From Streptomyces sp. NRRL F-5122 (lineage in GTDB: Bacteria; Actinomycetota; Actinomycetes; Streptomycetales; Streptomycetaceae): 64,000 nt of DNA. Both the position numbers and the translations under genes were made by a program. Under the pieces are notes generated by a model. That model ran no database searches. It saw nothing but the letters and a program-made list of their open reading frames with translations, and had not been told where the DNA came from. Below are positions 7,350-52,372 of the stretch, in pieces (within the stretch, counting starts at the first letter, position 1; every line of letters begins with the position of its first letter). Location: positions 62,001 through 126,000 of the forward strand of contig NZ_LMWH01000026.1 in NCBI RefSeq assembly GCF_001507435.1. The letters run 5' to 3'.

Positions 7350-7407
7350 CCCGGTCGACGTGCGTTCTCGGAACCCAAGCGAGCCGAACGCCGGCCCGTA
7401 TGCCGGA

Positions 7408-8298: not shown

Positions 8299-8922
8299 AG
8301 GATCACCTCACGGGCGAACGAACATGGTGGCAACCATGTTCACCTGGTTCCACCACATGCCGCCACTGATTTCAGCGTCCGCGGTGGAGGTGACAACGCA
8401 CCTGATTCGAGGACCGTTCGGGCAGATGCGCGGCACCGTCAAACCGTCTCGGTGCCGACGGCAATGTCTCCGCCTTGGGCAGGTCAGGCGGTTCGACGGC
8501 TGAGGGGAGACAGGACCCGGTCCCATGGCTGAGCGACGGCTTTGCCGCACTACGACGTGGCGGTGCGTGTGGCCAGAGCCGGTTCGGGCCAGGATCCGGC
8601 TTGGGCCACCGCCCCTTTGCCCTGGTCATGACCAAACCCTACGCAGTGCCGCGGGACGGTCGGCCACAAGCTGCCAAGCGGACAGCCTTCGACAACGAGC
8701 GCGGTGGGAGTTCGAGAACTCTTTCCCTATTCGATGGCACTGTCCAGGCCGAAGACGCGAGTGACGCAGGAGTCGAGCAGCGCTCCGAACGCCTGGGCGG
8801 AACGGATCGGCGGAGCAGGGATCCAACGGGCACCGGGCCCTGTCTTCCCGATGACTTGAGGAAGTCAGGGAGCCGGCCGTCTCCACTGCTCGTCGGTCAG
8901 CAGGCGCAGGCGCCCGTCGTGG
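8299..8922. other. Intergenic stretch of about 620 bases, no gene seen
   Basis: Contains the strong ribosome site of the upstream minus-strand gene. Open frames on both strands lack recognisable domains and ribosome sites. No repeat or strong hairpin was recognised. Confidence 0.4.
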
Positions 8923-9774
8923 TCATCGAGGTTTGTATGCGGTGGCCAGGACAGAGACGGTCACCCGGTCGGGAAGGGGTCCGCCGTCGTCCAACTCTGC
9001 GCGGCTCACGTGACGTGCACTCGGCGTCATCCCCACCAGGTTCAGGGCCTCCAGCCCGCCCAGGGCGATGGAGTACTCCACCCGTTCGGTGACGACGACC
9101 TCGAAATAGGGGTCCAGTGCGCGATGCAGGCGTTGTTCCTTGGCTGGGTCGACGGTGACCATTGCAGGTACCCGACCGTGCAATTCGGCCAGATGCCGCC
9201 CGGTAGGTCGGACCACGATCAGTCGGCCGGCCGGGCGGAGCACTCGGTGGAACTCGGCTGGATTGCGCGGTGCGAACACGTCCAACACCACGTCGGCCAC
9301 CCCGTCGGCCAGTGGAAAGGGCCGGAAGACATCCCAGGTGGCGGCAGCGGCTCGTTCATGGGCTCGGGCTGCCGACCGCAGGGCTCGCACCGATGTGTCC
9401 AGGCCCAGGCCTCGGGCGCCGGGCAACTGGTCGAGGACGCCGGCCAAGTAGTAGCCCGTACCGCATCCGACGTCCACGACCGTGCCCCGCGCAGAGGATG
9501 AGTCGGCCGCCAGGCAGGCCACCGTTCGGCGGATGGACGCGTACCGGCCGGTGGCCAGGAAGCGGCCCCGAGCCTGGACCATGGCCGCGTCGTCGCCGCT
9601 GGTGGCGCGGGTGCCCGTCAGGAGGCCGGCATAGCCGTGGCGAGCGATGTCGAAGGTATGGCCCGCCCCACAGCGCAGTGCGCCGTGGTCGGCATGCAGG
9701 CGGCGCGTGCGGCACGTCGGGCAGCGCAGCAGGTCGAGGAATCGTTCGAGGGCAGGGGGAAGCAATACGGGCAC
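8923..9774 (-). CDS. 23S rRNA (guanine-N1) methyltransferase, RlmA/TlrB family
   Basis: 283 residues. An N-terminal zinc ribbon (LRCPTCRTRRL, then LRCGAGHTFDIARHGY) and the sequence GYAGLLTG are diagnostic of the RlmA family. The SAM site follows as VVDVGCGTGYY, with the acidic loop DTSVRALRSAA. RlmA(I) methylates G745. RlmA(II), typified by TlrB of the tylosin producer, methylates G748 and contributes to macrolide resistance; actinobacterial members are usually of type II, but position specificity cannot be read here. GTG at 9774 is chosen because AGGAG lies 5 bases upstream; an ATG at 9789 lacks a ribosome site. It stands alone, with no macrolide biosynthesis gene nearby. Confidence 0.85.
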   Translation of the reverse strand: MPVLLPPALERFLDLLRCPTCRTRRLHADHGALRCGAGHTFDIARHGYAGLLTGTRATSGDDAAMVQARGRFLATGRYASIRRTVACLAADSSSARGTVVDVGCGTGYYLAGVLDQLPGARGLGLDTSVRALRSAARAHERAAAATWDVFRPFPLADGVADVVLDVFAPRNPAEFHRVLRPAGRLIVVRPTGRHLAELHGRVPAMVTVDPAKEQRLHRALDPYFEVVVTERVEYSIALGGLEALNLVGMTPSARHVSRAELDDGGPLPDRVTVSVLATAYKPR

Positions 9775-10378
9775 GAGCACTCCTGGCATGGCTGAGGGGA
9801 GGGGACCGTGCCTGCGCGCACCGAAGGTGACTGCCTCAGGAAGGATCGGGCAGTGTCAGGAAGGTGGTTCGCACGGCAGGCACGCCGAAGAGGGCGACGT
9901 CGTCCGACATCGCCCTCAATGCCTTCCGATCACAGGAAGCAGCAGTGCGGGGTGCTCGTGAATGCCACCCCATGAGTTTACGAGCCTCGACAAGATCCTT
10001 CGTGCTGCCGAAACTGATGCCATGACCGTTGATCGCGCGGCACTTCAAGCCGGCTGGAACCTGACTCGCGCCCACCTTGCCGCAGCCAGGGTCCACCTGG
10101 CGGCCGCCCCGGAAACGCAATGACCCACCAACCCGGCCGACAACCCCCGTCCGGGCGGCATCCGGCAGGGTTCGAGTGTCCAGCACCGAATCCCCGTTGA
10201 GGTGCCGCGCGATCCGCCCGGTGGCCGTTCGATGATGGTTTCGCAGCGTGGGCCGAGCCGGTGCAAGCCCCGCAGCGTGGGCCGATCCGGTCGGGTGGCG
10301 ACCGACACAACCGACGAGCAACCGCAAGGCCCGGTCATCGGTGTGCCGGCACGAACCATGTGCGTGGTGGCCAGGGCG
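9775..10378. other. Intergenic stretch of about 600 bases with one doubtful small ORF
   Basis: No recognisable gene apart from a 53-codon plus-strand frame listed separately. Its third-position G+C is lower than in the neighbouring genes. Confidence 0.4.
9962..10123 (+). other. Possible small protein or gene fragment (53 codons)
   Basis: ATG directly after an in-frame TGA, with a GGGGTG stretch about 10 bases upstream. The product is Ala/His/Arg-rich and helical, with a segment TVDRAALQAGWNLTRAHLAA that vaguely resembles a winged-helix DNA-binding segment. Third-position G+C (about 60%) is lower than for true neighbours, which argues for a remnant or chance frame. Not recognised. Confidence 0.25.
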
Positions 10379-11338
10379 TCAGGAGGCCGGGCCTGCGGCC
10401 TCGACCATGTCGAGGGAGAGCTGCCACAGACGAGCCGCACTCTGGGGGTCGACGGCGTGGCCGGCCACTCCCCGGCGCACACCCGGCCGGTGCGGACCGG
10501 CCTCGTTGCAGTCCTCGAAGTACCGTCCGGTGACACCCTCGACCAGCGGCGAAGCCGCGAGCAGCACCGATGTCGCGGCGCCCTGCTCGATGTTCTTCCA
10601 GGACACGTCGGTGCTGGTGGGGTCGAAGGAGGACGGGCTGTTGCCGATGTCCCCGATGTGGCGACCGAGGCGGGTGGTGGTGATGCGGCCGGGGTTGAGG
10701 GCGTTCACGCTGATCAGGTCGTGCGCCCAGCGACGGCCGGCCTCGACGGCGAACAGGACATTGGCGGTCTTGGACTGGCTGTAGGCCGCCCAGGGGTCGT
10801 AGGGGTGCTCCTCGAAGTTGATGTCGTCGAAGAGCACGTCGCCGTTGACATGGCCGACCGAGCTGACGACGACCACGCGTGCACCGCGGGCCTCCGTCAG
10901 GGCGCTGTGCAGGCCGGTCGCGAGGGCGAAGTGGCCGAGGTGGTTCGTGGCGAACTGCAGCTCCCAGCCCTCCTTGGTCCGTTCCAGCGGACACGCCATC
11001 ACGCCGGCGTTGAGGACCAGGACGTCCAGTGGCCCTTGCCATGCCGCAACGAAGGCGCGCACTGACGCCTGGTCGGCGAGGTCGAGCATCGCGGCGCGCA
11101 CCGTGCCCGGACCGCTCCCCGGGGTGATCTCCTCGGCCGCCTGTGCACCCGCGTCCAGGTCACGGACGCCGACGATCACCTCGGCGCCGGCAGCGGCCAG
11201 CACCCGGGCGGTCTCACGCCCGATGCCGGAGGCTGCTCCGGTGACGAGGGCTCGGCGACCGCTGAGGTCGATTCCGGCCAGCACCTCCTCCGCGGTCGTC
11301 AGCGCGCCGAACGGGGTGGTGACAAGGCTGTCTGTCAT
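10379..11338 (-). CDS. Short-chain dehydrogenase/reductase, retinol-dehydrogenase-like
   Basis: 319 residues. The cofactor loop is TGAASGIG, followed by NAGVMA, the catalytic Ser in VVVVSSVGH and YSQSK with catalytic Tyr and Lys. The long insert with FDDINFEEHPYDPW after the Ser strand is typical of the large retinol-dehydrogenase/WW-oxidoreductase-like branch. It probably reduces or oxidises a hydrophobic alcohol/carbonyl with NADP(H). Start 11338 is chosen for GGAGAG 6 bases upstream; the open frame extends to 11521 through the operator region. Transcribed alone and probably controlled by the twin palindromes upstream. Confidence 0.9.
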   Translation of the reverse strand: MTDSLVTTPFGALTTAEEVLAGIDLSGRRALVTGAASGIGRETARVLAAAGAEVIVGVRDLDAGAQAAEEITPGSGPGTVRAAMLDLADQASVRAFVAAWQGPLDVLVLNAGVMACPLERTKEGWELQFATNHLGHFALATGLHSALTEARGARVVVVSSVGHVNGDVLFDDINFEEHPYDPWAAYSQSKTANVLFAVEAGRRWAHDLISVNALNPGRITTTRLGRHIGDIGNSPSSFDPTSTDVSWKNIEQGAATSVLLAASPLVEGVTGRYFEDCNEAGPHRPGVRRGVAGHAVDPQSAARLWQLSLDMVEAAGPAS

Positions 11339-11435
11339 GTGACTCTCCAGAACGAGGGAAGAGGGCGAAGGGGATGCCGAGATACCGAGCTGCGCGGCGG
11401 GTGGCGTGGGGCACGGATCGCCGTAGGCTGATATC

Positions 11436-11485
11436 CGGAACCGGTTCCGGTTCGTCTTCGACATTAAGCGGAACCGGTTCCGGTT
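11436..11485. promoter_or_regulatory. Twin operator: two identical 17-bp copies, each with a 12-bp palindrome
   Basis: CGGAACCGGTTCCGGTT occurs at 11436-11452 and again at 11469-11485. Each copy contains the perfect palindrome GGAACCGGTTCC (11437-11448 and 11470-11481). The copies are 33 bp apart, about three helical turns, so two dimers could bind on one face of the DNA. They lie about 100-145 bases upstream of the SDR start, in the expected promoter zone. A TetR-like repressor is a reasonable guess; none is adjacent. Confidence 0.75.
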
Positions 11486-11819
11486 GCAAGTGGCGGCCGG
11501 GAGAGAACCGACAGTGAGCATGCAGACACACGCCGTCGCACCGCGGACCCGTGGGCGTCGTCGACGGGCGCATCATCGACGAGTCCGCATCGGCACCTTC
11601 GACCCGCGACTTCAAGTGCCGCCACGCCCCACATCGGCGCCGGCATGTCGGTGACACAGGGCACAACCACGGTCACGACACCACGCAGGGTGACCTCCGG
11701 CTCGGGTCCGTACAGAGTTCGCGTCGGACCGCACAGACGCCGAATAATTGCTTATCACTCGAATACGGCAGATCTTCTCTCGCGCCAACCGGCTCTTCGC
11801 GCCGGAGGGAGTCGTCATC

Positions 11820-14069
11820 GTGACGAGCAGCAGCCCAGGAAAAGATCAGCATCTCAGCGGCGAACCCACGGACATCCACGACGCGGGTCTTGCGGAAGTC
11901 CTGCACCATGCCGTCCGTGAGGCCAAGAAGCGGTTGTCCGCCGTGGCGGCAGCGGTCTACCTGCTGGACGAGGGCCGGGGCGAACTCCGACTCGCACTGG
12001 CCGCCGGGAGCCAGCTGTCGCTCTACACGATGCCCGGACGCATGGGACTGGACGGGTACGGCGCATCAGCCCGAGCTCTGCGGTCGGGGAAAGCGGCCGT
12101 CCTGGTCGATCCGGATCCTGCCGACCCCGGTCAGAAGCATGTACTGCCGTATCCCTACGTGGCCCTCTCTGCCCCCGTCATCGCCGGGGACCAGCGCTTC
12201 GGCGCCCTCACCGTTCTGTGTCTGGAGGACCGTGGCTCCTGCCGGCCCGCCGACGGACTGGCTCTCGTGGAGATCGGCGACAAGCTGGCCAACGCTCTCA
12301 CCATGCTCGTCAAGGACGGCATCACCGTGGCGGCCGATCCGATGCCGATGTTGATCCCACCGGAGTCCACCACCGACGTGTGCGGGTGCACAGCGGGCTG
12401 GGGAGTGCAGGGCGTTCCCGGGTCCGCGGGCACCAGCATGATGTACCCGCTGCGGCGGCTGTCCGTGCTGCTCAACCGCGCGACGACCGTGGACGAGGTC
12501 GTCGGGGCCGCCCAGTACTGCATGATGGACCCGCTGCGGGCGCAAGCCCTGGTCCTGGCCACGGCCAGCGAGGGACGCCTCTGGGTGCTGGGACACAGCG
12601 GAGCCTCCTCCGGCATGGTCCGCAGCATCCACGGCGCCCGAGTCGAGGACCGGATACCGGCAGCAGAGGCCTTTCGCGGACGCCCGCTGTACATGTCCGC
12701 GGACTCCTCGCCGAGCGCCGATCCCCTGTCGGTCGACGAGCCTCGAACCGAGGTGTATCTCCCGCTCATCGGCAACGGACAGCTGCTCGATCTGCCTGTC
12801 GTCGAAAGCGGCCGGGTCGTAGGCGTCTGCTGCCTGACGTTCTCCGGGCCCCACAGTTTTCCGCCTGAGGAAAGAGCCCTCCTCGGCATGATGGCGGGCA
12901 TGCTCGGAGCGGCGGTCGAACGGGTCGAGCTGAACCAACAGCAGCGTGCGGTCGCCGAATGCCTGCAGAGGTTTCTGCTGCCGTCCCGGTTGTCCCACCT
13001 GCCGCAGCTGGCCACCACGGCGCGCTACCGCCCCGCCACCGTCACCTCCAAGGTGGGTGGCGACTGGTACGACGTGATCAAACTGGCTGACGACCGTGCG
13101 GTGCTGGTCGTGGGCGATGTCGAGGGACACGCCATGGAGAGCTCCGCGGTCATGGGACAGGTACGCACCGCCGTCGCCTCCTATGCCACCGAAGGGCACC
13201 GCCCCGCCGCGGTGATAGACCGGACGGGCCGGCTCCTCATAGGGCTGGACACCGGTCTGACCGCGACCTGTTGCGTCGTTGCGCTCGATACGTCCGACCA
13301 CACCCTAGAGGTCGCCCTGGCCGGCCATCCGGCTCCTCTGGTACGGCGGCCCGACGGAAGCGTCTACGCCTTGGAGGCCCCGGCCAACGTGCCTCTGGGT
13401 GTCTGCGCGCCCGGCCCCTACCAAGGATGCGAGCACACCTTCGAGGCCGGTTCCGTCCTGATGCTCTACACCGATGGTCTCGTCGGATGGGACGCAGCCG
13501 ATCCCGAGGCCCGTGCGCAAGCGCTGCTCGGCTCCGAAAGCCCCGGATCCACACCCGACCTCGAGCAGCTTGCCGACGAGGTGATCGCGGAGGTCTCCGC
13601 ACCACAGCAGCGGCGGGACGACGCGGTTCTGCTGCTGGCACTGTACGAAGGCACGCAGGGCACTGACAGGCCCCATGTGGGAAGCCTGCACATTCAACGC
13701 CGCGATCTGCGCGGGGTCAGGACGGCACGCGCCTTCGTACACGACCAGCTGGACTCCTGGGGGCTGGACGACTTGTCGGAAGCCCTCGAGCTGGCCGCAT
13801 CGGAAATGGTGACCAACGCACTCATCCACGCCGGCAGCGACGTGGACGTCCGTCTGCGGGCCTTCCCCGATCACGTCCGGCTGGAGGTGCGGGACTCCGA
13901 CAGCAACCCACCCGTCCCCTCGCCGCTGTCCCTCAGCGAGGAGGACAACGCCGAGGCGGAGCACGGTCGCGGCATGCTGATCGTGGAGTCCTTGGCCGAG
14001 ATGTGGAACAGCTCCCCCAACGGTCAGGGCAAGACGGTCTCGTTGAACCTGCCCATCTCCCCGCACTGA
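11820..14069 (+). CDS. GAF-GAF-PP2C phosphatase-HATPase regulator (RsbU/SpoIIE type)
   Basis: 749 residues: first GAF domain (about 15-190), second GAF domain (about 220-400), PP2C/SpoIIE phosphatase (about 405-610) and HATPase_c anti-sigma-like kinase (about 630-745). Metal-binding motifs are intact: GGDWYD (D415), GDVEGH (D433), YTDGL (D552) and RRDDAVLLLA (D600/D601). The ATPase N-box reads SEMVTNALIH. Such proteins dephosphorylate anti-anti-sigma factors and may also phosphorylate or bind partners, acting in partner switching; GAF domains sense ligands. GTG at 11820 has GGAGGGA 9 bases upstream; the frame is open to 11748. Cytosolic; no partner genes adjacent. Confidence 0.9.
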   Translation: MTSSSPGKDQHLSGEPTDIHDAGLAEVLHHAVREAKKRLSAVAAAVYLLDEGRGELRLALAAGSQLSLYTMPGRMGLDGYGASARALRSGKAAVLVDPDPADPGQKHVLPYPYVALSAPVIAGDQRFGALTVLCLEDRGSCRPADGLALVEIGDKLANALTMLVKDGITVAADPMPMLIPPESTTDVCGCTAGWGVQGVPGSAGTSMMYPLRRLSVLLNRATTVDEVVGAAQYCMMDPLRAQALVLATASEGRLWVLGHSGASSGMVRSIHGARVEDRIPAAEAFRGRPLYMSADSSPSADPLSVDEPRTEVYLPLIGNGQLLDLPVVESGRVVGVCCLTFSGPHSFPPEERALLGMMAGMLGAAVERVELNQQQRAVAECLQRFLLPSRLSHLPQLATTARYRPATVTSKVGGDWYDVIKLADDRAVLVVGDVEGHAMESSAVMGQVRTAVASYATEGHRPAAVIDRTGRLLIGLDTGLTATCCVVALDTSDHTLEVALAGHPAPLVRRPDGSVYALEAPANVPLGVCAPGPYQGCEHTFEAGSVLMLYTDGLVGWDAADPEARAQALLGSESPGSTPDLEQLADEVIAEVSAPQQRRDDAVLLLALYEGTQGTDRPHVGSLHIQRRDLRGVRTARAFVHDQLDSWGLDDLSEALELAASEMVTNALIHAGSDVDVRLRAFPDHVRLEVRDSDSNPPVPSPLSLSEEDNAEAEHGRGMLIVESLAEMWNSSPNGQGKTVSLNLPISPH

Positions 14070-14214
14070 CCGCGCGATCGGCGAACCTCCGAGTGTGCAA
14101 GTCGTGGCCGGGAGTCACAACACCCCGCCGCGCGGCGCCACGACAGGCCCGGCCACGCTCCTCCGTTGCGCGTACAAGCAACTACCTTCCACCGCCCGGC
14201 CGTTGGCGGGGCGT

Positions 14215-15066
14215 TCACCCCTCCACGAGGCCCGACCAGAATCCGATCAGCGCCCTCGCCGTCTCCGTGGGACGCTGGAGGTTGGGTGAATGTCCCACGC
14301 CCTGCAGGACCGTCCGGTGCGCGTTCAGGCGGGTGGCCATGTCCTCCAGCTCCACCGTCGTCCAGGTGTCGTCCTTATCGCCGTACAGGACGTGCCTCGG
14401 CAGCGAGGTCACGGCCGCGAGTTCCGTTGTCCGGTCCGGTTCGGCCAGGAGCCGCCGTCCCACCACGCGCAGGTGCGACGGATGTGTACGCAGCCATCTC
14501 GCGCGAAGCCGTTCCGCGTCAGCGAGGGACGCGGGTGCGGGCCGGGACGCCTGCATCGCCTCCCACACTCGTGCCATCGTCATCGTTTCAAGCGCACCCA
14601 GGAGCAGCTTCAGCTGCAACTGCCGTTCCTCACCCACTTGCGCAGGCCCGGACGACAGCAGCGTGAGGGACAGAAAGGGCCGGGGGTCCGTCAACACCGC
14701 CGCCCTGGCCACCTGCCCGCCCATCGAGTGGCCCAGCAGATGCACCGGTCCACCGAGGGCCTCCACCTGCGCCAGCACGTCCAGGGCCAGAGCTTCCTGC
14801 CGATACGCTTCCTCGTCGTCCGGACCGGCAGTCTCGTTCTGCCCACGGGCATCGATCGCGACCGCTCGATAGCCGGCGTCGAACATGTCCGGGAGAAGGG
14901 GGACGAACTCCTCCTTGCTGCCCGTGTAACCGGGAAGCAGCAGGACGGTGCCGCGATGCTCCCCGCCGGTCGGCGTGGACTGCAGCGCGGCGAAGTCACC
15001 ACGCCGGGTTTTCAGCGGCAGCGAACGCACATGGTGCGGCAGAGTGGAAGAAAAGTGCTCAGACAT
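14215..15066 (-). CDS. Alpha/beta hydrolase, serine type
   Basis: 283 residues with the full serine hydrolase triad: GHSMGG (nucleophile Ser), Asp in LYGDKDDTW and His in GVGHSPNLQ. The oxyanion region reads LLLPGYTGSKEEF. Possibly an esterase or lactonase; substrate unknown. Two in-frame ATGs (15066 and 15117) both lack a clear ribosome site. 15066 is chosen because the protein then begins close to the fold and the longer N-terminus is not family-like. Monocistronic. No signal peptide. Confidence 0.83.
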   Translation of the reverse strand: MSEHFSSTLPHHVRSLPLKTRRGDFAALQSTPTGGEHRGTVLLLPGYTGSKEEFVPLLPDMFDAGYRAVAIDARGQNETAGPDDEEAYRQEALALDVLAQVEALGGPVHLLGHSMGGQVARAAVLTDPRPFLSLTLLSSGPAQVGEERQLQLKLLLGALETMTMARVWEAMQASRPAPASLADAERLRARWLRTHPSHLRVVGRRLLAEPDRTTELAAVTSLPRHVLYGDKDDTWTTVELEDMATRLNAHRTVLQGVGHSPNLQRPTETARALIGFWSGLVEG

Positions 15067-15281
15067 GGGCGGATCATATTCTTTGCCCGTCGCCCGGTCG
15101 GACAGCAGGCTGCGCATACGTACGGGACAGACACCTCAGCCCGCTCGCGGATCCGTGGGCGAGTACCCGCATCCCGGCCGAGACTCCGAGCGGAGCTTCA
15201 CTCACATAACGTGCGGACGTAGATCAAAAGTTCTGCCCGCACATCGCCGAGGACGTCCGCCACGACCGTCGGAGCCACGGT

Positions 15282-16142
15282 CTATCCGGCCGTCGGAGTG
15301 GCGGACGGCGGGGCGTAACTCGGGTGCAGTGAGGCGGGCAGCGGGGCGAGCGACGCGCACAACGAGGTGGGGAAGGCGGGCTCGTTGCGTTGCACGTCCC
15401 GGCAGCCTCCGGCCGAGGTCCGCAGCATCGGCTCCCAGCCCGACTTCTTCGCCCGGAAGAACCAGCGATCGCCCAGCCGGGAGGAGCAGGCAGGGTCGGT
15501 GGAGTCGCCGCAGGCCGGCCCCGTGCGCCAGGAGAAGTCCAGCACGAGCCACTCCCCGTCGCACTTCTCCGAGTCCCGGTACGTGTGAGCGGGGGCGTCG
15601 ACCGCCATCAACGCCTGCTCGTAGGAAGCGGCGGTGCAGCCGGTGGTCGGCGGTGTGCAGCCGAGTTCCCCGCACAACCGCAGCGCGGGCGGTTCGGCAC
15701 CGTGGGCGGTGAAGACCGTGTTGTAGTCGACGACCACCTCCCGGTCGCCCAGCGGTTGGGGCAGCCTGACCTTCGCCGTGGCCGTGCTCTCCTTGGTGCA
15801 CCCGGAGGCCCTGTCCGCGGACGGCGAGGTGAAGGTGACCTGCACCCGCACGAGGTCCGTCATCGGCTCGGTGAGCACTGCCTTGAGTTCGCGGACACAC
15901 GCGTGTGCGCCACTGGGCACCTGCGTATCGAGGAACAGCGTGCGGCGGTCGTCGCCGAGATGGGCTCCGGTGACCGCGGAAGGCGCCATAGTGGTCCATG
16001 GGATCGGCCCGGTCGTCGTCGACAAGGGTGACCTCCCGTCGCCCTGACCCACCACCTGTGTTCCGCACGCGCCGAGGAACAGTGCGGCAACGCCGCTGAG
16101 CAGGGCGACCACCGCAGCTCGACACGTTCTGCCTGCTCGCAA
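15282..16142 (-). CDS. Secreted lipoprotein of unknown function
   Basis: 286 residues from a TTG start, 11 bases after a run of six G and just after an in-frame TGA. A lipoprotein signal peptide, RTCRAAVVALLSGVAALFLG followed by AC, marks Cys 26 as the lipid-anchored residue. The mature part has about nine further cysteines (for example LRLCGELGCTPPTTGC and GPACGDSTDPAC), suggesting disulfides outside the membrane. The C-terminal 25 residues are Pro/Ser/Ala-rich. No domain recognised. Confidence 0.75.
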   Translation of the reverse strand: MRAGRTCRAAVVALLSGVAALFLGACGTQVVGQGDGRSPLSTTTGPIPWTTMAPSAVTGAHLGDDRRTLFLDTQVPSGAHACVRELKAVLTEPMTDLVRVQVTFTSPSADRASGCTKESTATAKVRLPQPLGDREVVVDYNTVFTAHGAEPPALRLCGELGCTPPTTGCTAASYEQALMAVDAPAHTYRDSEKCDGEWLVLDFSWRTGPACGDSTDPACSSRLGDRWFFRAKKSGWEPMLRTSAGGCRDVQRNEPAFPTSLCASLAPLPASLHPSYAPPSATPTAG

Positions 16143-37939: not shown

Positions 37940-38409
37940 CCCGGCATTCCCGGGCCGAGCACCGCTCCGTGCCGGAGCCGACGTACCAGCCGACCCGCAA
38001 CAGCCCCTTCCCGGCTCACGCTCCGCCCTGTACAGCGGCGTACGCAGCCGCGCCCGCAACAAAGGACGCCGTTCCTTCCGTTTCCGCATGGCTCTGCTCG
38101 TCGAGCGCGCCCTGGAGCGAGCAGGCCGGAAAGGCGCTGCACCGCCGGCCACCCCCTAGGCAATTCACAACGTCCACACACAATGGTGGTTGCTCGTTAT
38201 GCGTTCAACGAATAACAATCGCACGCGAAAGGATCTACCCGGCGAGTCGATGACGCCCCCACGTGCGGTCATCCCATGGGCCCCGGAACGGATCCGACCA
38301 CGTCTCAAGTGAGGGTGACAACGTTGTCAGAGCGCGTACCGACGCGACTTTCGCCCTTCACGCGCCCACTGCGCCGTTCGTACTCGGCCAGAGAGTTCAG
38401 GAACGCTTC
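37940..38409. other. Intergenic region of about 470 bases upstream of the amidase
   Basis: A locally AT-rich stretch around 38165-38225 (GTTATGCG, ACGAATAACAATC) is the likely promoter zone. No further gene recognised. Confidence 0.4.
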
Positions 38410-40350
38410 ATGACAAGATCCACAGATTCCCGCCGGCGCAAGTCGCGACACCGTGTGCCTTTGTTGGCGGCGGCAGGCATGGTCGCCCTCGCGGGCGCGG
38501 CCGTCCTGCCGCTGACCGCCATGGCCAGCGGCGACGCCACGCCGTCGAAGACCGCACGGCAGGATGACTTCGCCGCGGCCTCGAAGGAGTTCCACGTCCC
38601 GCAGCAGGTGCTGCTCGGCGTCGCGTACCAGGAGTCGGCGTGGGAGGACCACGCCGGCCGGTACAGCACCAACGGCGGCTACGGTCCGATGCACTTGACG
38701 GACGTCACACCCGAGATGCTGGCCGGAGGCGACGCCGGGGCCGTCGGCCGCGCCGACCTCAAGACGCTCGCCGCGGACCCCGCCCTGCACACCCTCGAGG
38801 CGGCGGCACGACTGACCGGCCTGTCCGCCGAGGAACTGCGCAAGGACCCGGCGGCCAACATCCGCGGCGGTGCCGCCCTGCTCGCGTCGTACCAGAAGGC
38901 GACGGTCGGCGCCGCGTCGTCGGACCCGGGCAAGTGGTACGCGGCGGTGGCCCGTTACAGCGGTTCCGCGCATCAGCAGGGTGCCGCCGCGTTCGCCGAC
39001 CGGGTGTTCTCCACCGTCAAGCACGGCGCCCGGCGCACCACGCAGGACGGGCAGCGCGTGAACATGACCGCAGCCCCGGACGTCTCCCCGGCCACCGCGC
39101 AGCTGGGCACCCTCCACCTCAAGGCGGCGGCCACCGCGGAGACCGAGTGTCCCTCCACGGTGGAATGCACCTTCGTCCCGGCCGCCCCGTCGAACGGCCA
39201 GGTCTCCAACCGCCCCGCCAACGGCATCCGGATCGACTCCATCGTCATCCACGACACCGAGTCGTCCTACGAGTCCGCCATCGCGACCTTCCAGAATCCC
39301 GGCGGCAGCGCGTCACACTATGTGATGCGGTCGTCGGACGGCGCGGTGACGCAGATGGTGCCCACCAAGGACCTGGGCTTCCACGCGGGCAACTACTCGA
39401 CCAACATGCACTCCATCGGCATCGAGCACGAGGGCTACGCCGCGCACGGCGGCAGTTGGTACACCGAGGCCCAGTACGAGGCCACGGCGGATCTGGTGAA
39501 GTACCTCGCCGCCCGCTTCGACATACCGCTGGACCGGCAGCACATCATCGGGCACGACAATGTCGCCGGGCCCTCGTCGGCCCTGGTCTCCGGCATGCAC
39601 TGGGACCCGGGCACGTCCTGGGACTGGGAACACTTCATGAAGCTCCTGGGCGCGCCGATCAAGGGCGTCCACGGCGTGGGCCGCGTCGGCTCGGTGGTGA
39701 CCATCGCCCCCGGCTTCTCCTCAAACCGGCAGACCGTGCAGATCTGCCCGGCGGACGACCCGACCGGTGACACCACCGCCTGCACCGACAAGCAGCAGCC
39801 GTCGAACTTCGTCTTCCTGCACACCGAACCCAGCCAGACCGCCCCCCTCTTCGGGGACCAGGCGGTCCACCCGGGTGGCGCCGGCACCGACCGGATCAAC
39901 GACTGGGGCAGCACGGCTCAGGCAGGCCAGCAGTTCGTGGTGGCCGATCGTTCCGGTGCCTGGACCGCGATCTGGTACAGCGGCGCCAAGGTGTGGTTCT
40001 ACAACCCGCTCGGCCGCAACACCGTACCGGCGCACGGTGTGAAGGTGATCAAGTCCGCCGGCGCCGACCCTGTCGCGGTCTACGGCTCCAGCTACCCGGA
40101 CGCCGCTGAGTACCCCGCCGGGCTGTCCCCGTCGACGCAGGCCCCGCTGAGCATGTACTCCGTCCCTGCCGGCCAGGCCTATGTCGCCACCCAGCCGCCG
40201 GCCGCCACGGACGACTTCTTCCCCTCGAGCGGAGCGGTGGTCACCGGCGGCAAGAAGATGTACACGATCCAGTACAACCACCGGGTCGGGCTGGTGTACG
40301 AGTCGGACGTGACCGCAACCGACCTTCCGGCCCTCGGCCACAACAGCTGA
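38410..40350 (+). CDS. Secreted N-acetylmuramoyl-L-alanine amidase with an extra lysozyme-like N-terminal domain
   Basis: 646 residues. Signal peptide about 1-40 (basic start, then [20 protein letters not shown]). Residues 50-205 resemble the lytic-transglycosylase fold: [20 protein letters not shown] (catalytic-type Glu 75), [16 protein letters not shown]. Amidase_2 domain about 255-410: H281 in IVIHDTES, H340/E341 in IEHEGYA and H397 in MHWDPGTSW would bind zinc and cleave the peptide from MurNAc. The C-terminal 230 residues look SH3-like. ATG 38410 has AGGA 7 bases upstream. Exported; probably remodels or attacks peptidoglycan. Monocistronic, followed by a strong terminator. Confidence 0.9.
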
Positions 40351-45595: not shown

Positions 45596-46717
45596 GTTCG
45601 TCCTTAGCAATGTCGGTGATATGTGCACGCTGAATGCACCTGAAGCCTTCAGACCTTGATCCTGCTCTGTGGACGGCGGATGAGCTCAACGTGAAGGCGC
45701 TGCGGCAGACGGGCAACGACCTCCCGCGATGCCGCGACGCGTACTGGCCTGGATCCCCGTGGGTGATGCCGCTGAAGTACCACCACGGCGGGTCCGGGTC
45801 CAGTCCCGGGACCGCTCGGTCCGGATGGGCCGCAGCCGTTCGACGAAAGGAACCAGCCAGGCAATTGGGGCAGCGGCATGTCCCGAAAAGATGGCGTCGC
45901 TGCGGGACGGGCGCTCGCGGACGCGTTTACTGCTAGCTTGCTCAGTGTCTGCAGGGGGGCTCCCCCGTACCCCCTGCAGACCCATGGGTCGTGGTCAGCT
46001 GCCTGCGTGCAGCGTGCAAGCCGGAGCACAGACGGTCGGCGGACCCCGTCCTGTGTAGAGACTCGCGGGCTACGGGATCAAGGCCCGGCGATTCCCGAAG
46101 CGACGGCCCCGACTACCTTTTCGTATCTGCCTGCGGGACGAACTGCACCGGACCGCGCCGCATCCCCGCGAGCCCTCTCTCGTTCAACTCGCCTTTCCCT
46201 GGGCGGGATTGCGACAAATTCCAGGCTTTCGGCGCCGCCGAAAAGGCGCAACAACGCGGGCGGACGACGCGTCCTGGCCACCGCGGAACTCCCAACCGCC
46301 GCAACATGTTCGCATGCGGCGGCGGTCCGACCACCGATACGACGTGGCGCCGCGCCCGCTCGAGGTCACCGGAAGTGCACCACCCGGCTGCCTCCTCCAC
46401 CGGAGCCCACCCTCGCCGCAGCAGTGCCCTGCTCGCCATCGGCCAACGGCCTGGAGACGCGGAAGAGTTCGACGGGGTCGTGGCAGGCAGCGGGGTTCCG
46501 GGGCGGTGGCCGACCGGGATCGCAGGCCTGTTCCCGAGGACCGCACACCCGTTCCAAGCGGGATATGCTGTACATGCCGCCGATCCATTTACGGTTCAAC
46601 AACATGTCGGACGCATCGCTGCTTCCGTCGGGTAAGTCCCGTCCGGCACGGACACGCGTCGATGAGTCCGGTGGCCCGCAGTGATATCGATGTCATCATC
46701 TTCCGGAAGGAACTGCC
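45596..46717. other. 1.1-kb region without a recognised gene
   Basis: Between the PHP hydrolase (minus) and the FHA-FAD gene (plus). Many open frames overlap on both strands but none has a recognisable domain or a good ribosome site. Contains a strong hairpin at 45947-45981, listed separately. Could hold a small RNA or be eroded sequence. Confidence 0.4.
45947..45981. ncRNA. Perfect 12-bp hairpin in a long intergenic region (possible small RNA or terminator)
   Basis: GTCTGCAGGGGG (45947-45958) pairs with CCCCCTGCAGAC (45970-45981), 11-base loop. A TAGCTT element at 45934 resembles a -10 box, which would start transcription just before the stem. It is not next to any gene end, so an RNA regulator or an isolated terminator are both possible. 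Confidence 0.35.
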
Positions 46718-48622
46718 GTGGCTCCGGTGCTCGTCGGACACCAAGGTCTGCTGGCGGGAGAGCGCATCCCGATTCTGGACACCCGCGTCACCTTCGGTCG
46801 CAACTCCGACAACACCGTCGTCATCTCGAGTCTGAGCGTCTCCCGCTTTCACGCGGAGATCGTCTTCGACGAGAACGAGGGATACGTGCTGCACGACTGC
46901 GGCAGCAGCAACGGCACGCAGGTCAACGGCGAGGACGTGGAGTCCCGGCTCCTCCAGTCCGGCGACGAAATCACCATGGGTGACCAGGAGTTCCGCTTCG
47001 AGGTCGCGGACGCCATGGAGACCCTCATGGCGCTCTCCCTGCCGCGATCCGTGACCCACGGCGCCGAGGAGAGCGAAAGCGGTCCGGTTCTGCGCGTCAC
47101 CGTCGCCGGCGGTGGTCCCGTCGGTCTCTCCTTCGCCCTGCTGCTGGAGCACTTCCTCGGCCCTCAGGCGCAGATCACCGTCTACGACGGCAGGTGGCGC
47201 AAGCAGGGCCGCACCATCGTCTGGAAGGGCCAGGACGAAGGCAACGTACGGCGCCAGCAGGTGGTCACCGTGCAGAGCCGCCAGTACCTGGCCTGGCCGG
47301 AGGAGGTTCGGGCACGCCTCTTCGATCCGGAGCACTACAGCGAGATGTGGCCCTCCGGTCCGGACTCGATCGGCGACCACCACCCGCGCAACATGCGGAT
47401 CGCGTACATCGAGGACCGACTGCTGGAGCTGGCGAACGAGAAGCGGGAACGGATCCGCCTCATACCCACCCGGTTCGACCCGGCGGAGCAGCAGGACGCC
47501 CTCGCCACACAGCACGTTCTCGCCATCTGCGACGGCGGGCGATCGCACACCCGAGAACACTTCGCCGCCCGGTTCGGCAAGGCCGACGAGTCCATCTACT
47601 CCCTGGACGGCCGCCACCTCCAGGACGTCGTCCTCGGCCTGCGCGTGAAGTCGACCCTTTCCGATCCCATGGCGGTCCTGCTGACCGTCGCTCAGAACCG
47701 CTTCCTGCTGAACTCGCTGCGCGGCGAGGGCTTCCTCAACATGCGCCTGACCGACGCCGAGCTGTCGGAGGTCATCGGCATCGACCCGGTCCGCCGCGTC
47801 TTCGAGGAGTGCATCGCGTCCCGGCCGTGCCTGATGGACCGCGACGAACACGGCGACTTCCAGTGCTCCACCCACGGCACGCTGTTCCTGCCCGCCCTGA
47901 TCAAGGGTTCGTCCCTGTGGAAGCGTGTGCATGAGGGACTGCGACTCTTCGGTGTCGAGTCCGAGGATCTGACCGCGGTCACGAGTTTCCGCCTGGACAT
48001 GGTCCAGCGCCCGCGCTTCTCGGCCGAGTTGATGCCCGCCACCGCCGGCTCTCCCGGCACCTACGGGTTCCTTCTGGGAGACGCCGCCAACGCCATTCAC
48101 TTCTGGCCCGGTCGCGGACTCAACAGCGGTCTCGCCTCGGCCATTTCCCTGGCCCGTTCCCTCAACGGGGCCTGGAGCGGGAAGGCTTTCCGCGACGCGG
48201 ACTTCCTGCGGCACGAGGCCGCGATGTCGATGCTCCAGTACCGGCACAAGAGCCGCGCATGGAAGGCGATGGTCACCAGCGACGACAAGGGCGCCACGTG
48301 GGCCATCAAGGACATCATCGCCCACGGGATCGACGCCGCCGACGACCTGGACCGCGACGCGGACACCAAGGCCCTTCTGGAACGCATGCGCACCCTCCGC
48401 GAGAGGCTGGCGCCCCGCCTGCCCGGAATGCCTGACGACGAGGCGATCCTGGAGCGTCTGCAGACGCTGGAGCCCGCCACACTGCGCATGCTCGTCCTCA
48501 GCGGCGCCTGGGACACTCTCACGATGGGCGGCGAAGAGGTCGACATCGACATCTTCTACGGCCAGGACTCCTCCGCGGCGGCCGCCGCGGTGGAAGCGCT
48601 GGAGCCCGCCGTCCAGTCATGA
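46718..48622 (+). CDS. FHA domain fused to a FAD-dependent monooxygenase-like protein
   Basis: 634 residues. FHA domain about 1-100: FGRNSDNTVV, SVSRFHAEIVF and CGSSNGTQVNG hold the residues that bind phosphothreonine. FAD part about 124-490: VTVAGGGPVGLSFALLLEHF (dinucleotide loop) and GFLLGDAANAIHFWPGRGLN (the GD motif of aromatic hydroxylases and MICAL-like oxidases). The C-terminal 140 residues are helical and charged. It probably hydroxylates or oxidises a target and is brought to a Ser/Thr-phosphorylated partner by the FHA domain; substrate unknown. GTG start, AAGGA 7 bases upstream. No kinase gene nearby. Followed by a strong terminator. Confidence 0.85.
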   Translation: MAPVLVGHQGLLAGERIPILDTRVTFGRNSDNTVVISSLSVSRFHAEIVFDENEGYVLHDCGSSNGTQVNGEDVESRLLQSGDEITMGDQEFRFEVADAMETLMALSLPRSVTHGAEESESGPVLRVTVAGGGPVGLSFALLLEHFLGPQAQITVYDGRWRKQGRTIVWKGQDEGNVRRQQVVTVQSRQYLAWPEEVRARLFDPEHYSEMWPSGPDSIGDHHPRNMRIAYIEDRLLELANEKRERIRLIPTRFDPAEQQDALATQHVLAICDGGRSHTREHFAARFGKADESIYSLDGRHLQDVVLGLRVKSTLSDPMAVLLTVAQNRFLLNSLRGEGFLNMRLTDAELSEVIGIDPVRRVFEECIASRPCLMDRDEHGDFQCSTHGTLFLPALIKGSSLWKRVHEGLRLFGVESEDLTAVTSFRLDMVQRPRFSAELMPATAGSPGTYGFLLGDAANAIHFWPGRGLNSGLASAISLARSLNGAWSGKAFRDADFLRHEAAMSMLQYRHKSRAWKAMVTSDDKGATWAIKDIIAHGIDAADDLDRDADTKALLERMRTLRERLAPRLPGMPDDEAILERLQTLEPATLRMLVLSGAWDTLTMGGEEVDIDIFYGQDSSAAAAAVEALEPAVQS

Positions 48623-48640: not shown

Positions 48641-48670
48641 AGGCGCGGAGAGGGGGCCCTCTCCGCGCCT
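48641..48670. terminator. Very strong terminator after the FHA-FAD gene
   Basis: AGGCGCGGAGAGGG (48641-48654) pairs perfectly with CCCTCTCCGCGCCT (48657-48670), followed by TT. It also serves the convergent hydrolase gene. Confidence 0.88.
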
Positions 48671-48779: not shown

Positions 48780-49514
48780 TCAGGCCGCCGAGTGGGCACT
48801 CCAGTGCGCTTCGAGGGCCGCAGCGACCTCGGCCGGCCTCTCGAGCACCGTCCAGTGGTTGCAGTCGAGCTCCAAGACGCGGGACGCCCGCAGCGCTACG
48901 CCGAGCTCCCGCCCGAACCGGACCGGACAGGCCGGGTCGAGTGCCCCCCAGAAGACCAGGCACGGCGCTGACACGTTCGCCAGTGCCGGTTCCCATTCGG
49001 CGCCCATGGTCAGGGCGGAACGGTAGAGCCTGAGGATGCTGTCCTTCATCGTCCCGTCGACGTGGCGGACCATCTCCTCGGCCGGCTCGGCGGGGACGTC
49101 GAAGCCCGCCACCAGATCCCTGGCGAAGGACGTCGCCTCCAGTTCGTTCATGAACCGGTCGCCCTCGTCCCGGTCCTGCCACACCTTGGCCAGCGGGTGC
49201 CAGCCGTACCTCGCGCTGATCGGGCCGTTGCCGCCGGCCCACGTACGGACCAGATCGGGCCGCAGGGACGCGACGCGTGCGGTGATGATGCACCCCCAGT
49301 CGTGGCCCACCAGGTCCACCGGTTCACCGACTCGCTCCAGGCGATCGATGAGCCGATCGACGTACTCCTCTTTGGTGGAGCCGAAGCCCCGCGGCCGCGG
49401 AGCGCCGAAGCCGGGCAGGTCCCAGGCCTCCACATCGGTTCGGGTCAGGTGCCGGCGTACGCCGTCCCATACGCGGTGGGTGTCGGGGACTCCGTGGATC
49501 AAGACTGCAGGCAT
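48780..49514 (-). CDS. Alpha/beta hydrolase with aspartate nucleophile
   Basis: 244 residues. MPAVLIHGVPDTHRVWDGVR, nucleophile elbow LVGHDWGCIIT with Asp, acid in FWGALDPACPV and His in LDCNHWTVLERP. As in epoxide hydrolases/dehalogenases, but the second substrate is unknown. ATG at 49514 has AAGGA 8 bases upstream; the long upstream frame is not coding. Divergent from the XRE regulator gene, which probably controls it. Cytosolic. Confidence 0.85.
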   Translation of the reverse strand: MPAVLIHGVPDTHRVWDGVRRHLTRTDVEAWDLPGFGAPRPRGFGSTKEEYVDRLIDRLERVGEPVDLVGHDWGCIITARVASLRPDLVRTWAGGNGPISARYGWHPLAKVWQDRDEGDRFMNELEATSFARDLVAGFDVPAEPAEEMVRHVDGTMKDSILRLYRSALTMGAEWEPALANVSAPCLVFWGALDPACPVRFGRELGVALRASRVLELDCNHWTVLERPAEVAAALEAHWSAHSAA

Positions 49515-49631
49515 GGTCGAGGTCCTTGTCCGAGCGATGCTGGTGAGGGGCAGCACGGTCACCGCGGATCGAGGCGCGCACAGCGACCGTATCTCTGGGA
49601 ATACACATTGTGTCACACGGTGTTGAGTGGG

Positions 49632-49649
49632 GTGATCGGAGCCGATCAC
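49632..49649. promoter_or_regulatory. 18-bp perfect inverted repeat between the hydrolase and XRE genes
   Basis: GTGATCGG-AG-CCGATCAC, 8+2+8. It lies 118 bases upstream of the hydrolase ATG on the minus strand and 153 bases upstream of the chosen XRE start, in the divergent promoter region. Probable binding site of the XRE regulator. Confidence 0.65.
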
Positions 49650-49801
49650 ACTGTCTGCACGGCGGATCGCGCACAGTATTGCGGTCAGGCCCTTGATCCA
49701 TGACTGAGGACGAACACAAGCCCCGAACGTCGATGGGCGGAGCGTTTGAGGCAACCTGTGTTCTCAGGACGAACGGTCGCGAACGAACAGGACGGGAAGC
49801 A

Positions 49802-50623
49802 GTGGACAGAGCCGGACTGGCGGCCTTCCTCAGGGCGCGACGCGAGGCCCTGCAGCCGGAGGACGTAGGCCTGCCGCGTGGGCGACGGCGGCGCACAAGA
49901 GGGCTGCGCCGAGAGGAAGTGGCCGCGCTGTGCGACATGTCGGTCGACTACTACACCCGGCTCGAGCAGCCTCGGGGCCCGATCCCCTCGGAGCAGATGC
50001 TCGCCGCGATCGCACGCGGTCTGCATCTCTCGCTCGAGGAGCGCGATCACCTGTTCCGACTCGCCGGCCACGCCGCCCCCCGAAGAGTGCGGCGCGGCGA
50101 CCACATCGCCCCTGGCATGATGCGCATCCTCGACCGCCTGGAGGACACTCCCGCGCAGGTGGTCAATCACCTGGGTGAGACGTTGAAGCAGACCAGGCCC
50201 GCGATAGCGCTGCTGGGTGACGAGACGGCTTTCACGGGACCGGCCCGCAGCCTGCACTATCGGTGGTTCACCGATCCCACCTCACGACTGATCCATCCGA
50301 TCGGCGACCACCCGGTGCACAGCCGGCTCCTGGTTGCGGATCTCCATGCCGCCCATGCACGGGACGGCCGTGACTCGCGAACCGCCGAGCTCGTCGACGC
50401 GCTGCGGGCGGCCAGCCCCGAGTTCGCCGCACTCTGGCGCGAGCATCCGGTACTCGGGTCCTACTGCGCAGCCAAGCGCTTCCAGCACCCGCAGCTGGGG
50501 ACCCTTGAACTCCACTGCCAGACGCTCGTCGACCCCGACCGGTCGCAGCGCCTGCTGGTCTTCACCGCCGCACCGGGCACGGAGAGCCACACCGGTCTCC
50601 AACTTCTCGCCGCCGTCGGGTAG
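49802..50623 (+). CDS. XRE regulator with MmyB-like ligand-binding domain
   Basis: 273 residues. HTH at about 30-75: GLPRGRRRRTRGLRREEVAA and LCDMSVDYYTRLEQPRG; the ligand domain (about 95-265) contains MMRILDRLEDTPAQVVNHLG and HYRWFTDPTSRLIHPIGDHP. GTG 49802 is chosen because family members begin at this point (VDRAGLAAFLRARREAL); the frame is open to an ATG at 49700 without a ribosome site. Likely represses or activates the divergent alpha/beta hydrolase gene, like the other XRE regulator in the window does for the aldo/keto reductase. Confidence 0.9.
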   Translation: MDRAGLAAFLRARREALQPEDVGLPRGRRRRTRGLRREEVAALCDMSVDYYTRLEQPRGPIPSEQMLAAIARGLHLSLEERDHLFRLAGHAAPRRVRRGDHIAPGMMRILDRLEDTPAQVVNHLGETLKQTRPAIALLGDETAFTGPARSLHYRWFTDPTSRLIHPIGDHPVHSRLLVADLHAAHARDGRDSRTAELVDALRAASPEFAALWREHPVLGSYCAAKRFQHPQLGTLELHCQTLVDPDRSQRLLVFTAAPGTESHTGLQLLAAVG

Positions 50624-50923
50624 CCCGCACGACTTCCGCACCCCAAGGACGCCGGCACCTCCCGGGGCAGTGCCTGGGCCGGGACACCGCATCACCGACC
50701 GGGCCGCCGCGTTGTGACCACCGCGCCCCATCACCGGGCGGCCCCTGGCCGGTGACGGCCGCCCGCCCCCACGGGCATGGACCCCGTCCCGCAGACCCGC
50801 CGGACGGTCCCGGCAGGCATCGGCGACACACGTCGAGAGACGTACGTCACATTTCACGTCGTCACACTTTTCCGAGGTGTCCGGTCACTAGGGATGTATC
50901 CGCAACACGGCGAGAGGATCACC
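50624..50923. other. Intergenic stretch of 300 bases with a hairpin
   Basis: GGGCGGCC (50736-50743) pairs with GGCCGCCC (50757-50764), a possible terminator for the XRE gene. The ribosome site AGAGGATCACC of the next gene lies at the end. No gene. Confidence 0.45.
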
Positions 50924-51397
50924 ATGGAACCGCGTGTCAACTACTTCGGAAACTCCCTCGCAGGCAAGGTCCTGAAGCACATCAACTCGGCCAGCAAGGT
51001 GCTGTCCGAGTCGACGCTGCCGCACGCGACGCAGGAGCTGGTGAAGATCCGCGCGAGCCAGATCAACGGCTGCGGTTTCTGCACCGACATGCACACCAAG
51101 GACGCCGCTGCCGCCGGTGAGACCGCGCAGCGCCTCCACCTGGTCGCGGCCTGGCGCGAGGCCACCGTCTTCACCGACGCCGAGCGTGCCGCACTCGAAG
51201 TGGCCGAGCAGGGCACCCGTCTCGCCGACGCTGCCGGTGGTGTCACGGACGAGGCCTGGGCGAACGCTGCCAAGCACTACGACGAGGACCAGCTCGTCGC
51301 CCTTATGTCGCTGATCGCGGTCATCAACGCCTACAACCGCGTCAACGTGATCAACCAGCAGCCCGCCGGTGACTACAAGCCCGGCATGTTCGGCTGA
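50924..51397 (+). CDS. Carboxymuconolactone decarboxylase/AhpD-family protein
   Basis: 157 residues. The AhpD-type active site reads NGCGFCTDMHTKDA: CxxC with a following His, the redox pair that reduces peroxides together with a partner. Flanking helices: PHATQELVKIRASQI and YDEDQLVALMSLIAVINAYN. ATG follows AGAGGATCACC. Probably an alkyl-hydroperoxidase-like antioxidant. Upstream region has a short TACGTCACATTTCACGTCGT stretch with partial symmetry. Followed by a terminator and then an SDR, so likely separate. Confidence 0.88.
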   Translation: MEPRVNYFGNSLAGKVLKHINSASKVLSESTLPHATQELVKIRASQINGCGFCTDMHTKDAAAAGETAQRLHLVAAWREATVFTDAERAALEVAEQGTRLADAAGGVTDEAWANAAKHYDEDQLVALMSLIAVINAYNRVNVINQQPAGDYKPGMFG

Positions 51398-51425
51398 CAG
51401 GCACTGCTGTCCGGTGAAACACAGC

Positions 51426-51467
51426 GTCCGTCTCCGCGCCCCCCGACCTCAAGGTGTGGAGACGGAC
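51426..51467 (+). terminator. Terminator after the AhpD-like gene
   Basis: GTCCGTCTCC (51426-51435) pairs perfectly with GGAGACGGAC (51458-51467), 29 bases past the stop. Confidence 0.75.
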
Positions 51468-51607
51468 TGCCGGCGCAAACAGGCCGCACCCGATGCGCGG
51501 ACCGTCCTTTCCGCGGCCTGACAAATCCTCGGGGTATTTCGCCCCGCGTCCGCCCTCACAGCGAAACTCACCCGACGAGAAAGACGCACTGCGAACAGAG
51601 GCAAGTC

Positions 51608-52372
51608 ATGTCCAATTCCACAGCCCGGAACTTCATGGACCGTGTGGTAATCGTCACCGGGGCCGGATCGGGAATCGGCCGCGCCACGGCCATCGCCTTC
51701 GCGGAGTCGGGGGCCCACGTCCTCGGCGTGGGACGCCGAAAGGATGCTCTGGAGGAGACGGCCGGTGCGCACTCCGGCATCGCCGTCCTGCCGCTCGACA
51801 TCCGCGAGGAGGGGGCCGCGGAAAGGGCCGTCGCCACGGCCGTGGAGAAGTGGCGCCGGCTCGACGTACTCGTCAACAACGCCGGTACGACCGCCATGAT
51901 GCCCCTGTCGGAGACCGACCGGTCGGTCATTACCGACCTGTTCGATCTCAATGTGACGGCCCCCAGCGTGCTCGCCCACGCGGCCCTGCCCCACCTGAGC
52001 GACTCCGCGGGTTCCATCGTCAACGTCTCGAGCACCTACGGCCACCGCCCCCTGCCCGGTGGAGCCCACTACGCCGCCACCAAGAGCGCTCTGGAGCAAC
52101 TGACGCGAAGCTGGGCTCTCGAACTCGCGTCGACGGGGGTACGCGTGAACGCGATCGCCCCGGGCCCCACCGAGACGGACGTTCTGGCCGCGGCCGGCCT
52201 CCCCCAGGACACGATCAACGAGATACGCAGCGCGGAGCGCGAACGCATCCCGGTGGGCCGTCTCGGTGACCCCAAGGACGTCGCCGACTGGATCCTGCGT
52301 CTGGCCGACCCCCGGGACACGCACCTCACCGGCCAGATCCTCACGATCGACGGCGGACTCGAACTCGTCTGA
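51608..52372 (+). CDS. Short-chain dehydrogenase/reductase
   Basis: 254 residues, classical SDR: TGAGSGIG, NNAGTT, catalytic Ser in NVSSTYG, YAATK, and ILTIDGGLELV at the C-terminus. Likely NAD(P)-dependent, substrate unknown. AGAGG upstream of the ATG supports the start at 51608. Followed by a hairpin at 52400 and, 353 bases later, an NmrA-like gene. Confidence 0.9.
   Translation: MSNSTARNFMDRVVIVTGAGSGIGRATAIAFAESGAHVLGVGRRKDALEETAGAHSGIAVLPLDIREEGAAERAVATAVEKWRRLDVLVNNAGTTAMMPLSETDRSVITDLFDLNVTAPSVLAHAALPHLSDSAGSIVNVSSTYGHRPLPGGAHYAATKSALEQLTRSWALELASTGVRVNAIAPGPTETDVLAAAGLPQDTINEIRSAERERIPVGRLGDPKDVADWILRLADPRDTHLTGQILTIDGGLELV

Follow-up and report, generated by a model that had tools for sequence, protein, structure and literature searches.

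What would a streptomycete do with an enzyme that carries, in one and the same chain, a phosphothreonine-binding FHA domain and a flavin hydroxylase-like domain? The question is raised by a gene at positions 46718..48622 of a 64,000-nucleotide stretch of DNA from Streptomyces sp. NRRL F-5122 (contig NZ_LMWH01000026.1, positions 62,001 to 126,000), which is referred to as a whole as the window. A first-pass annotation had proposed that its product targets an oxidation reaction to a Ser/Thr-phosphorylated partner. We report here that the fusion is real, recurrent and, as far as the literature was searched, uncharacterised, and that in the sister clade of the window gene's own clade it almost always adjoins a Ser/Thr kinase gene, a linkage that suggests an oxidation chemistry switched by protein phosphorylation. 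The parts of the gene and its product, with amino acid (aa) positions, are as follows:

46718..48622, + strand: FHA-flavin monooxygenase (by fold) fusion gene; GTG start, 634 aa, frame open throughout; full-length fusion in 138/138 loci
46787..46981, + strand: FHA domain, aa 24-88; R28, S42, H45, N65, G66 and T67 invariant
46982..47089, + strand: variable inter-domain linker, about aa 89-124; predicted local confidence (pLDDT) <50 at aa 98-120; varies in the alignment
47090..48262, + strand: predicted group A flavoprotein-monooxygenase core, about aa 125-515; borders set by eye
47108..47125, + strand: GxGxxG dinucleotide motif GGGPVG, aa 131-136; G131, G133 and G136 in 119/119 distinct proteins
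47528..47554, + strand: DG motif CDGGRSHTR, aa 271-279; G273, S276 and R279 in 119/119; D272 is Glu in most relatives
48077..48124, + strand: GD motif GDAANAIHFWPGRGLN, aa 454-469; G454, D455, H461-G467 and N469 in 119/119
48509..48556, + strand: conserved C-terminal tail WDTLTMGGEEVDIDIF, aa 598-613; W598, T600, G605, E606, E607, D609 and D611 in 119/119; predicted disordered

The front part matches PF00498 over aa 24-88 with an E-value of 3.5e-20 and 72.7 bits (Pfam gathering cut-off 20.7), and aa 451-490 match PF01494 (FAD_binding_3) with 25.5 bits (gathering cut-off 22); at E<=1, only FHA, Yop-YscD_cpl and FAD_binding_3 were matched by the window protein in Pfam. In one alignment of the fusion family, PF00498 was found in 43/43 proteins and FAD_binding_3 in 37/43 (E<=0.001). 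NCBIfam models of 27 families were matched, and none of the 25 listed reached its cut-off; these listed matches point to OdhI/FhaB at the front and to UbiH-type hydroxylases at the rear. The UbiH/UbiF/COQ6 model TIGR01988 scored 26.1 bits against a cut-off of 224.65 and the OdhI/GarA model NF041660 scored 53.1 against 200, and neither assignment can be given to the protein.

The short motifs on which the first-pass annotation relied, GR (G27-R28), S42xxH45 and SSNGT (63-67) in the FHA domain, GGGPVG and GD...HFWPGRGLN in the flavin domain, are all present, and their counted positions are invariant in the 119 distinct proteins that we compared, including all six listed FHA residues. Arg, Ser, His and Asn are the residues through which FHA domains contact phosphothreonine. 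Mean column identity is 70% across the flavin part, and from these alignments both the FHA residues and the flavin motifs look functional. The tail, WDTxxxGGEEVDID, is nearly invariant, although most of aa 600-634 has low pLDDT in both structural models described below. FHA domains show a preference at the third position after the threonine; the residue at T600 +3 is Val in 87 and Met in 32 of the 119 proteins, and T600 could be a candidate phosphosite readable by an FHA domain.

In the full-length model (pLDDT 75, predicted template modelling score (pTM) 0.50, 43 sequences), the FHA part fits GarA and OdhI chains at 1.0-1.4 Å. The flavin-only model was better (pLDDT 79.5, pTM 0.81, 66 sequences), is predicted to have a PHBH-like fold and matches UbiH, PqsL, HspB, StyA, KMO and OxyS within one Z unit (21.8-21.5; 315-333 residues; 3.5-4.2 Å), with an identity to the flavin-fold matches listed of just 10-20%. 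The rear part, as modelled, is therefore a group A monooxygenase by fold whose subfamily is not assignable. The fusion shares fold and sequence motifs with the group A flavoprotein monooxygenases UbiH, KMO, PqsL, PHBH and StyA, but differs from them by this low identity in the matches listed, by reaching no subfamily cut-off and by its added FHA domain. We know of no FHA domain in UbiH, KMO, PqsL, PHBH or StyA.

How widespread is this arrangement? With the fusion as query, a protein search returned 1115 hits (E<=0.001), of which the top 120 all contain PF00498 and carry the automatic names FHA domain-containing protein or hydroxylase-like oxidoreductase; the remaining 995 may include FHA-only or flavin-only proteins. 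The fusion was present in 16/394 genomes and 4/137 genera of a class-wide draw, and in 59/392 genomes of a draw within Streptomyces. A scan of named genomes with two DNA patterns, both derived from the flavin part, gave 162 loci; we used the best 80, whose hosts are Streptomyces, Kitasatospora, Streptacidiphilus, Streptantibioticus, Actinacidiphila, Streptosporangiaceae genera, Nocardiopsis and Micromonosporaceae. Together with the window and 57 loci of the genus draw, these form a set of 138 loci (some genomes are in both sets) encoding 119 distinct proteins; the 19 repeats were omitted from the tree, as was a fragment in genome G420 whose flanks were not fetched.

All 138 loci, the window included, encode the identical full-length layout and keep the FHA part, which excludes a frameshift or assembly artefact at the join and bears out the recurrence that the first-pass annotation had wanted checked. 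Close homologues devoid of the FHA part, which would have spoken against its proposal, were found neither among the best 120 of the 1115 hits, nor in the 138 loci, nor in 296 genomes of the phylum, where an alignment of the flavin part gave only four matches at E<=1e-12, all in Streptomyces carriers already known. The distribution is patchy and partly plasmid-borne: eight plasmid records carry the fusion, seven from Streptomyces and one being an 11.85-Mb Nonomuraea replicon in which the region of the fusion is unannotated. No match to the fusion was found in phages, and none to it among the PADLOC anti-phage defence models. The window genome holds a single copy; five further matches there span only the FHA part of the query.

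The main clue to the function of the family comes from its neighbourhood. In a quick maximum likelihood tree of the 119 rows, with support from the Shimodaira-Hasegawa-like approximate likelihood ratio test (SH-aLRT), the sister clade of the window's clade has 43 members (support 100), and a Ser/Thr kinase gene lies directly upstream of the fusion in 41 of them, on the same strand in 32 and divergently in nine, these nine forming one subclade (support 99). Within this clade, only L099 and L173 have no adjoining kinase, and these two rows group as sisters (support 92). A motif rule applied to called open reading frames (ORFs) served to identify kinases, with tblastn for those missed by the ORF caller; tblastn recovered 12 kinases of this linked clade, one of them at a contig end (L133), which was assigned as linked by hand before the tree was made. 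Members of a clade are not independent of each other, and the tree cannot separate gain from loss. Within 4.2 kb of the 41 linked loci, the kinase is the sole widely recurrent neighbour, found in 30 by ORF calling alone, the runner-up family being found in three. The kinase also adjoins the fusion in 35/37 linked-clade members of the genus draw and in all seven Streptomyces plasmid copies (six same strand, one divergent; two S. chartreusis records encode identical proteins). The co-occurring kinase that the first-pass annotation suggested looking for thus exists beside the gene in this clade and is missing beside the window gene itself; likewise, its suggestion of a single-gene module fits the window's clade, whereas the sister clade has a two-gene module.

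The linked kinase has a Pkinase domain; by reading, a hydrophobic segment comes next and then, at the C-terminal end, a domain of about 110 aa, which would be outside the cell and sensor-like, a membrane topology suggested by the protein sequence. This C-terminal domain was detected in 230/392 genomes of the genus draw (E<=1e-8), and most of these therefore hold an unlinked copy. At least two copies were present in 33/392 genomes, all 33 belonging to the linked clade as counted by eye from the table, which suggests that the extra kinase copy serves the fusion gene specifically.

Similar layouts are known in Mycobacterium. The sister clade resembles the PknF-Rv1747 pair, where the gene of a Ser/Thr kinase lies upstream of that of an FHA effector to form a two-gene module; both FHA domains of Rv1747 are required for two-hybrid interaction and phosphorylated threonines modulate function (PMC3908365). 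However, that effector is no flavoenzyme: it is an FHA-ATP-binding cassette transporter and has two FHA domains. In addition, the window gene has no kinase neighbour. In the same way, the gene of the FHA effector EmbR adjoins that of its kinase PknH, which phosphorylates EmbR via the FHA domain (PMC7785237), but EmbR is a transcription regulator and its FHA domain stands at the C-terminal end (chain 2fez). The nearest FHA domains by sequence and fold are those of GarA and OdhI, phosphorylation-controlled actinobacterial proteins, the phosphorylated ETTS motif of GarA adjoining its FHA domain (PMC12321487). Unlike the fusion, they are free-standing FHA proteins with an N-terminal ETTS motif and no catalytic domain. 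No description of an FHA-flavin monooxygenase or hydroxylase fusion, nor a function for it, was found in open-licence full-text literature, a paper elsewhere being possible, and none of the titles listed on FHA, Streptomyces and kinases concerned one; within that literature, the first-pass annotation, which knew of no such described system, is borne out.

Because of the analogy with these kinase-FHA-effector pairs (PMC3908365, PMC7785237), the likeliest reading is that the fusion is a phosphorylation-controlled flavin monooxygenase docked through its FHA domain on a membrane Ser/Thr kinase, and we hold this to be rather probable. What we infer here, namely flavin activity, phosphothreonine binding, kinase topology, docking, phosphorylation and the direction of control, would run as follows. 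The enzyme would be a group A flavin monooxygenase, dependent on reduced nicotinamide nucleotide (NAD(P)H) and flavin adenine dinucleotide (FAD), whose N-terminal FHA domain docks on a phosphothreonine of a membrane kinase with an extracellular sensor-like C-terminal domain. In the sister clade, this kinase would be the product of the next-door gene, and in the window genome an unlinked homologue (G000:C1:390538-392175) or another kinase. Docking would bring the enzyme to the membrane and expose it to phosphorylation by the kinase, with the invariant C-terminal tail near T600 as a possible site, and this phosphorylation would turn small-molecule hydroxylation on or off. The first-pass idea of an oxidation aimed at the phosphorylated partner is not supported as it stood, since in the described pairs (PMC3908365, PMC7785237) the FHA domain mediates the phosphorylation of the effector by its own kinase; it is less likely than a docked, kinase-regulated enzyme.

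Several observations weigh against such a kinase-docked monooxygenase. No kinase lies within 6 kb of the window gene, which differs in this from a PknF-Rv1747-type pair, and the contig of the window (C25) gave no kinase match at E<=1e-10. Outside the linked clade, a kinase adjoins the fusion in only 2/76 rows (L073 and L081), near chance expectation. There, the C-terminal domain of the linked kinase is present in 14/22 fusion carriers versus 181/333 non-carriers (G420 counted outside), and co-occurrence is therefore uninformative for the window's clade. In two genomes of the linked clade, G572 and G711, the fusion is kept and no match to the C-terminal domain was obtained at E<=1e-8. At position 272 of the DG motif, 29 proteins, the window's included, have Asp and the other 90 of 119 have Glu. 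Finally, the full-length model, with its pTM of 0.50, is uninformative on contact between the two domains.

The window genome has one clear homologue of the linked kinase, the unlinked one cited above, which lies well away from the window and has 68% identity over residues 17-522; its next five kinases reach 46-57% over shorter stretches. All 11 drawn genomes of the window's clade carry the C-terminal domain, but so do 230/392 overall, and this co-occurrence was not used as support. The two kinase-bearing loci outside the linked clade both belong to Streptosporangiaceae. In L073 (Sphaerimonospora mesophila, 7291-15438), the fusion is flanked by one kinase upstream and two downstream, all on the same strand. 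In L081 (Streptosporangium carneum, 7381-9585), the neighbour 415 bp upstream on the same strand is a kinase of a different type (734 aa, E 9.9e-46), found in a later profile check confined to called ORFs. The window genome also has, beyond the window, a tandem kinase cluster with five Ser/Thr kinase matches in about 10 kb (G000:C58:101751-111290). The window genome's kinase matches 35 PADLOC models, mostly PD-T4-6, itself a kinase, among the 25 of 35 listed, which says little.

The fold neighbours of the flavin part that are small-molecule hydroxylases (UbiH, PqsL, HspB, KMO) would also suit a hydroxylase acting by itself on a small molecule, be it a natural product or a xenobiotic, to modify or inactivate it, the FHA domain holding the hydroxylase in a complex with other enzymes and phosphorylation being secondary. 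The patchy, partly plasmid-borne distribution fits such an enzyme, as does an arylamine N-acetyltransferase gene found 17-55 bp downstream, on the same strand, in 10/138 loci (8 distinct rows), in a subclade of the window's clade; PF00797 was confirmed for one of these neighbours (L026:11920-12774), and the acetyltransferase could be co-transcribed with the hydroxylase. However, this linkage proves little because most such loci, being close relatives, share further neighbours, and the linked clade keeps the kinase as its one neighbour while others change. With the FHA contact residues invariant as well, we consider a stand-alone hydroxylase unlikely, if the least so of the alternatives. Conversely, the flavin domain might have ceased to oxygenate altogether and now sense redox state or a ligand, adjusting how the FHA domain binds its partners, comparable to GarA/OdhI as FHA regulators of enzymes. 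The proximity of the FHA part to these two proteins, the Glu at position 272 in 90/119 and the high overall conservation are compatible with a sensor, but the positions counted in the GxGxxG and GD motifs are preserved in 119/119, the window protein has Asp272 and no result here indicates that catalysis was lost, which makes this quite improbable.

MICAL enzymes oxidise actin, and the first-pass idea corresponds to a MICAL-like scheme in which a kinase marks a target on threonine and the FHA domain brings the flavoenzyme to it for oxidation. In its favour are the invariant FHA residues and flavin motifs, the kinase neighbour in 41/43 of one clade, and MICAL structures at Foldseek ranks 20 and 38 for the full model. 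These structures are absent, however, from the 50 matches listed for the better flavin-only model, which are headed by small-molecule hydroxylases; Pfam shows no domain besides FHA and flavin, and the kinase is the only conserved protein encoded nearby in the linked clade. The scheme requires a protein substrate, for which the analysis gives no evidence, and we judge it improbable. A phosphothreonine-guided protein oxidase in the broader sense, in which the kinase marks a protein or itself and the flavoenzyme recruited by the FHA domain oxidises what was marked, is not favoured over a small-molecule substrate and appears quite improbable too. Kinship with MICAL itself had been prompted by an FWP-containing motif; no paper was found, the flavin-only fold matches listed do not favour it, and it was kept only as a rival. 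In MICAL, the flavin domain is accompanied by CH and LIM domains, neither of which is among the three Pfam matches of the window protein at E<=1.

Around the window gene, two features were delimited:

45629..46717, no strand: gap to the divergent upstream gene, 1089 bp
48641..48670, + strand: hairpin 3' of the stop codon, possible terminator; 13-bp stem; folded stretch at -35.7 kcal/mol (z -3.6)

The first-pass annotation had described the gene as having its own terminator and lying next to a 1.1-kb non-coding region. A strong 13-bp hairpin does follow the stop codon, yet it lacks a proper T run, and the terminator scan gave no hit. As for the non-coding region, as far as our gene calls go, a gap of 1089 bp separates two divergent genes; neither Rfam nor, by blastn, any of the other 137 loci gave a match to it. 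The idea that a kinase was lost from this gap was rejected, as no remnant was found in it (blastx against linked kinases, best E 0.20). Downstream (48780-52372), an alpha/beta hydrolase gene divergent from that of an MmyB-type regulator is followed by a carboxymuconolactone-decarboxylase-family gene and a short-chain dehydrogenase/reductase gene, which looks like an ordinary MmyB-regulated cluster. Further upstream (38263-40350), one protein matches both N-acetylmuramoyl-L-alanine amidase (Amidase_2) and SLT transglycosylase. In other hosts, a sigma-factor-like gene, so named by reading, begins 51-150 bp after the fusion in seven Microbispora loci (L050:12057-13852, L051-L053, L057, L059 and L070), followed in six of them by another shared gene; all are close relatives.

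To our knowledge, FHA effectors of bacterial kinases are transporters, transcription regulators or regulators of central metabolism. The fusion is a new output type within a known regulatory layout, and the linked kinase subfamily gains in it a specific candidate target. The family is common (59/392 Streptomyces genomes) and also resides on large plasmids, and its compact two-gene versions can be co-expressed and tested. If our reading is true, the family would couple signals from outside the cell directly to oxygenation chemistry, with a membrane Ser/Thr kinase as the input and a flavin monooxygenase as its output.
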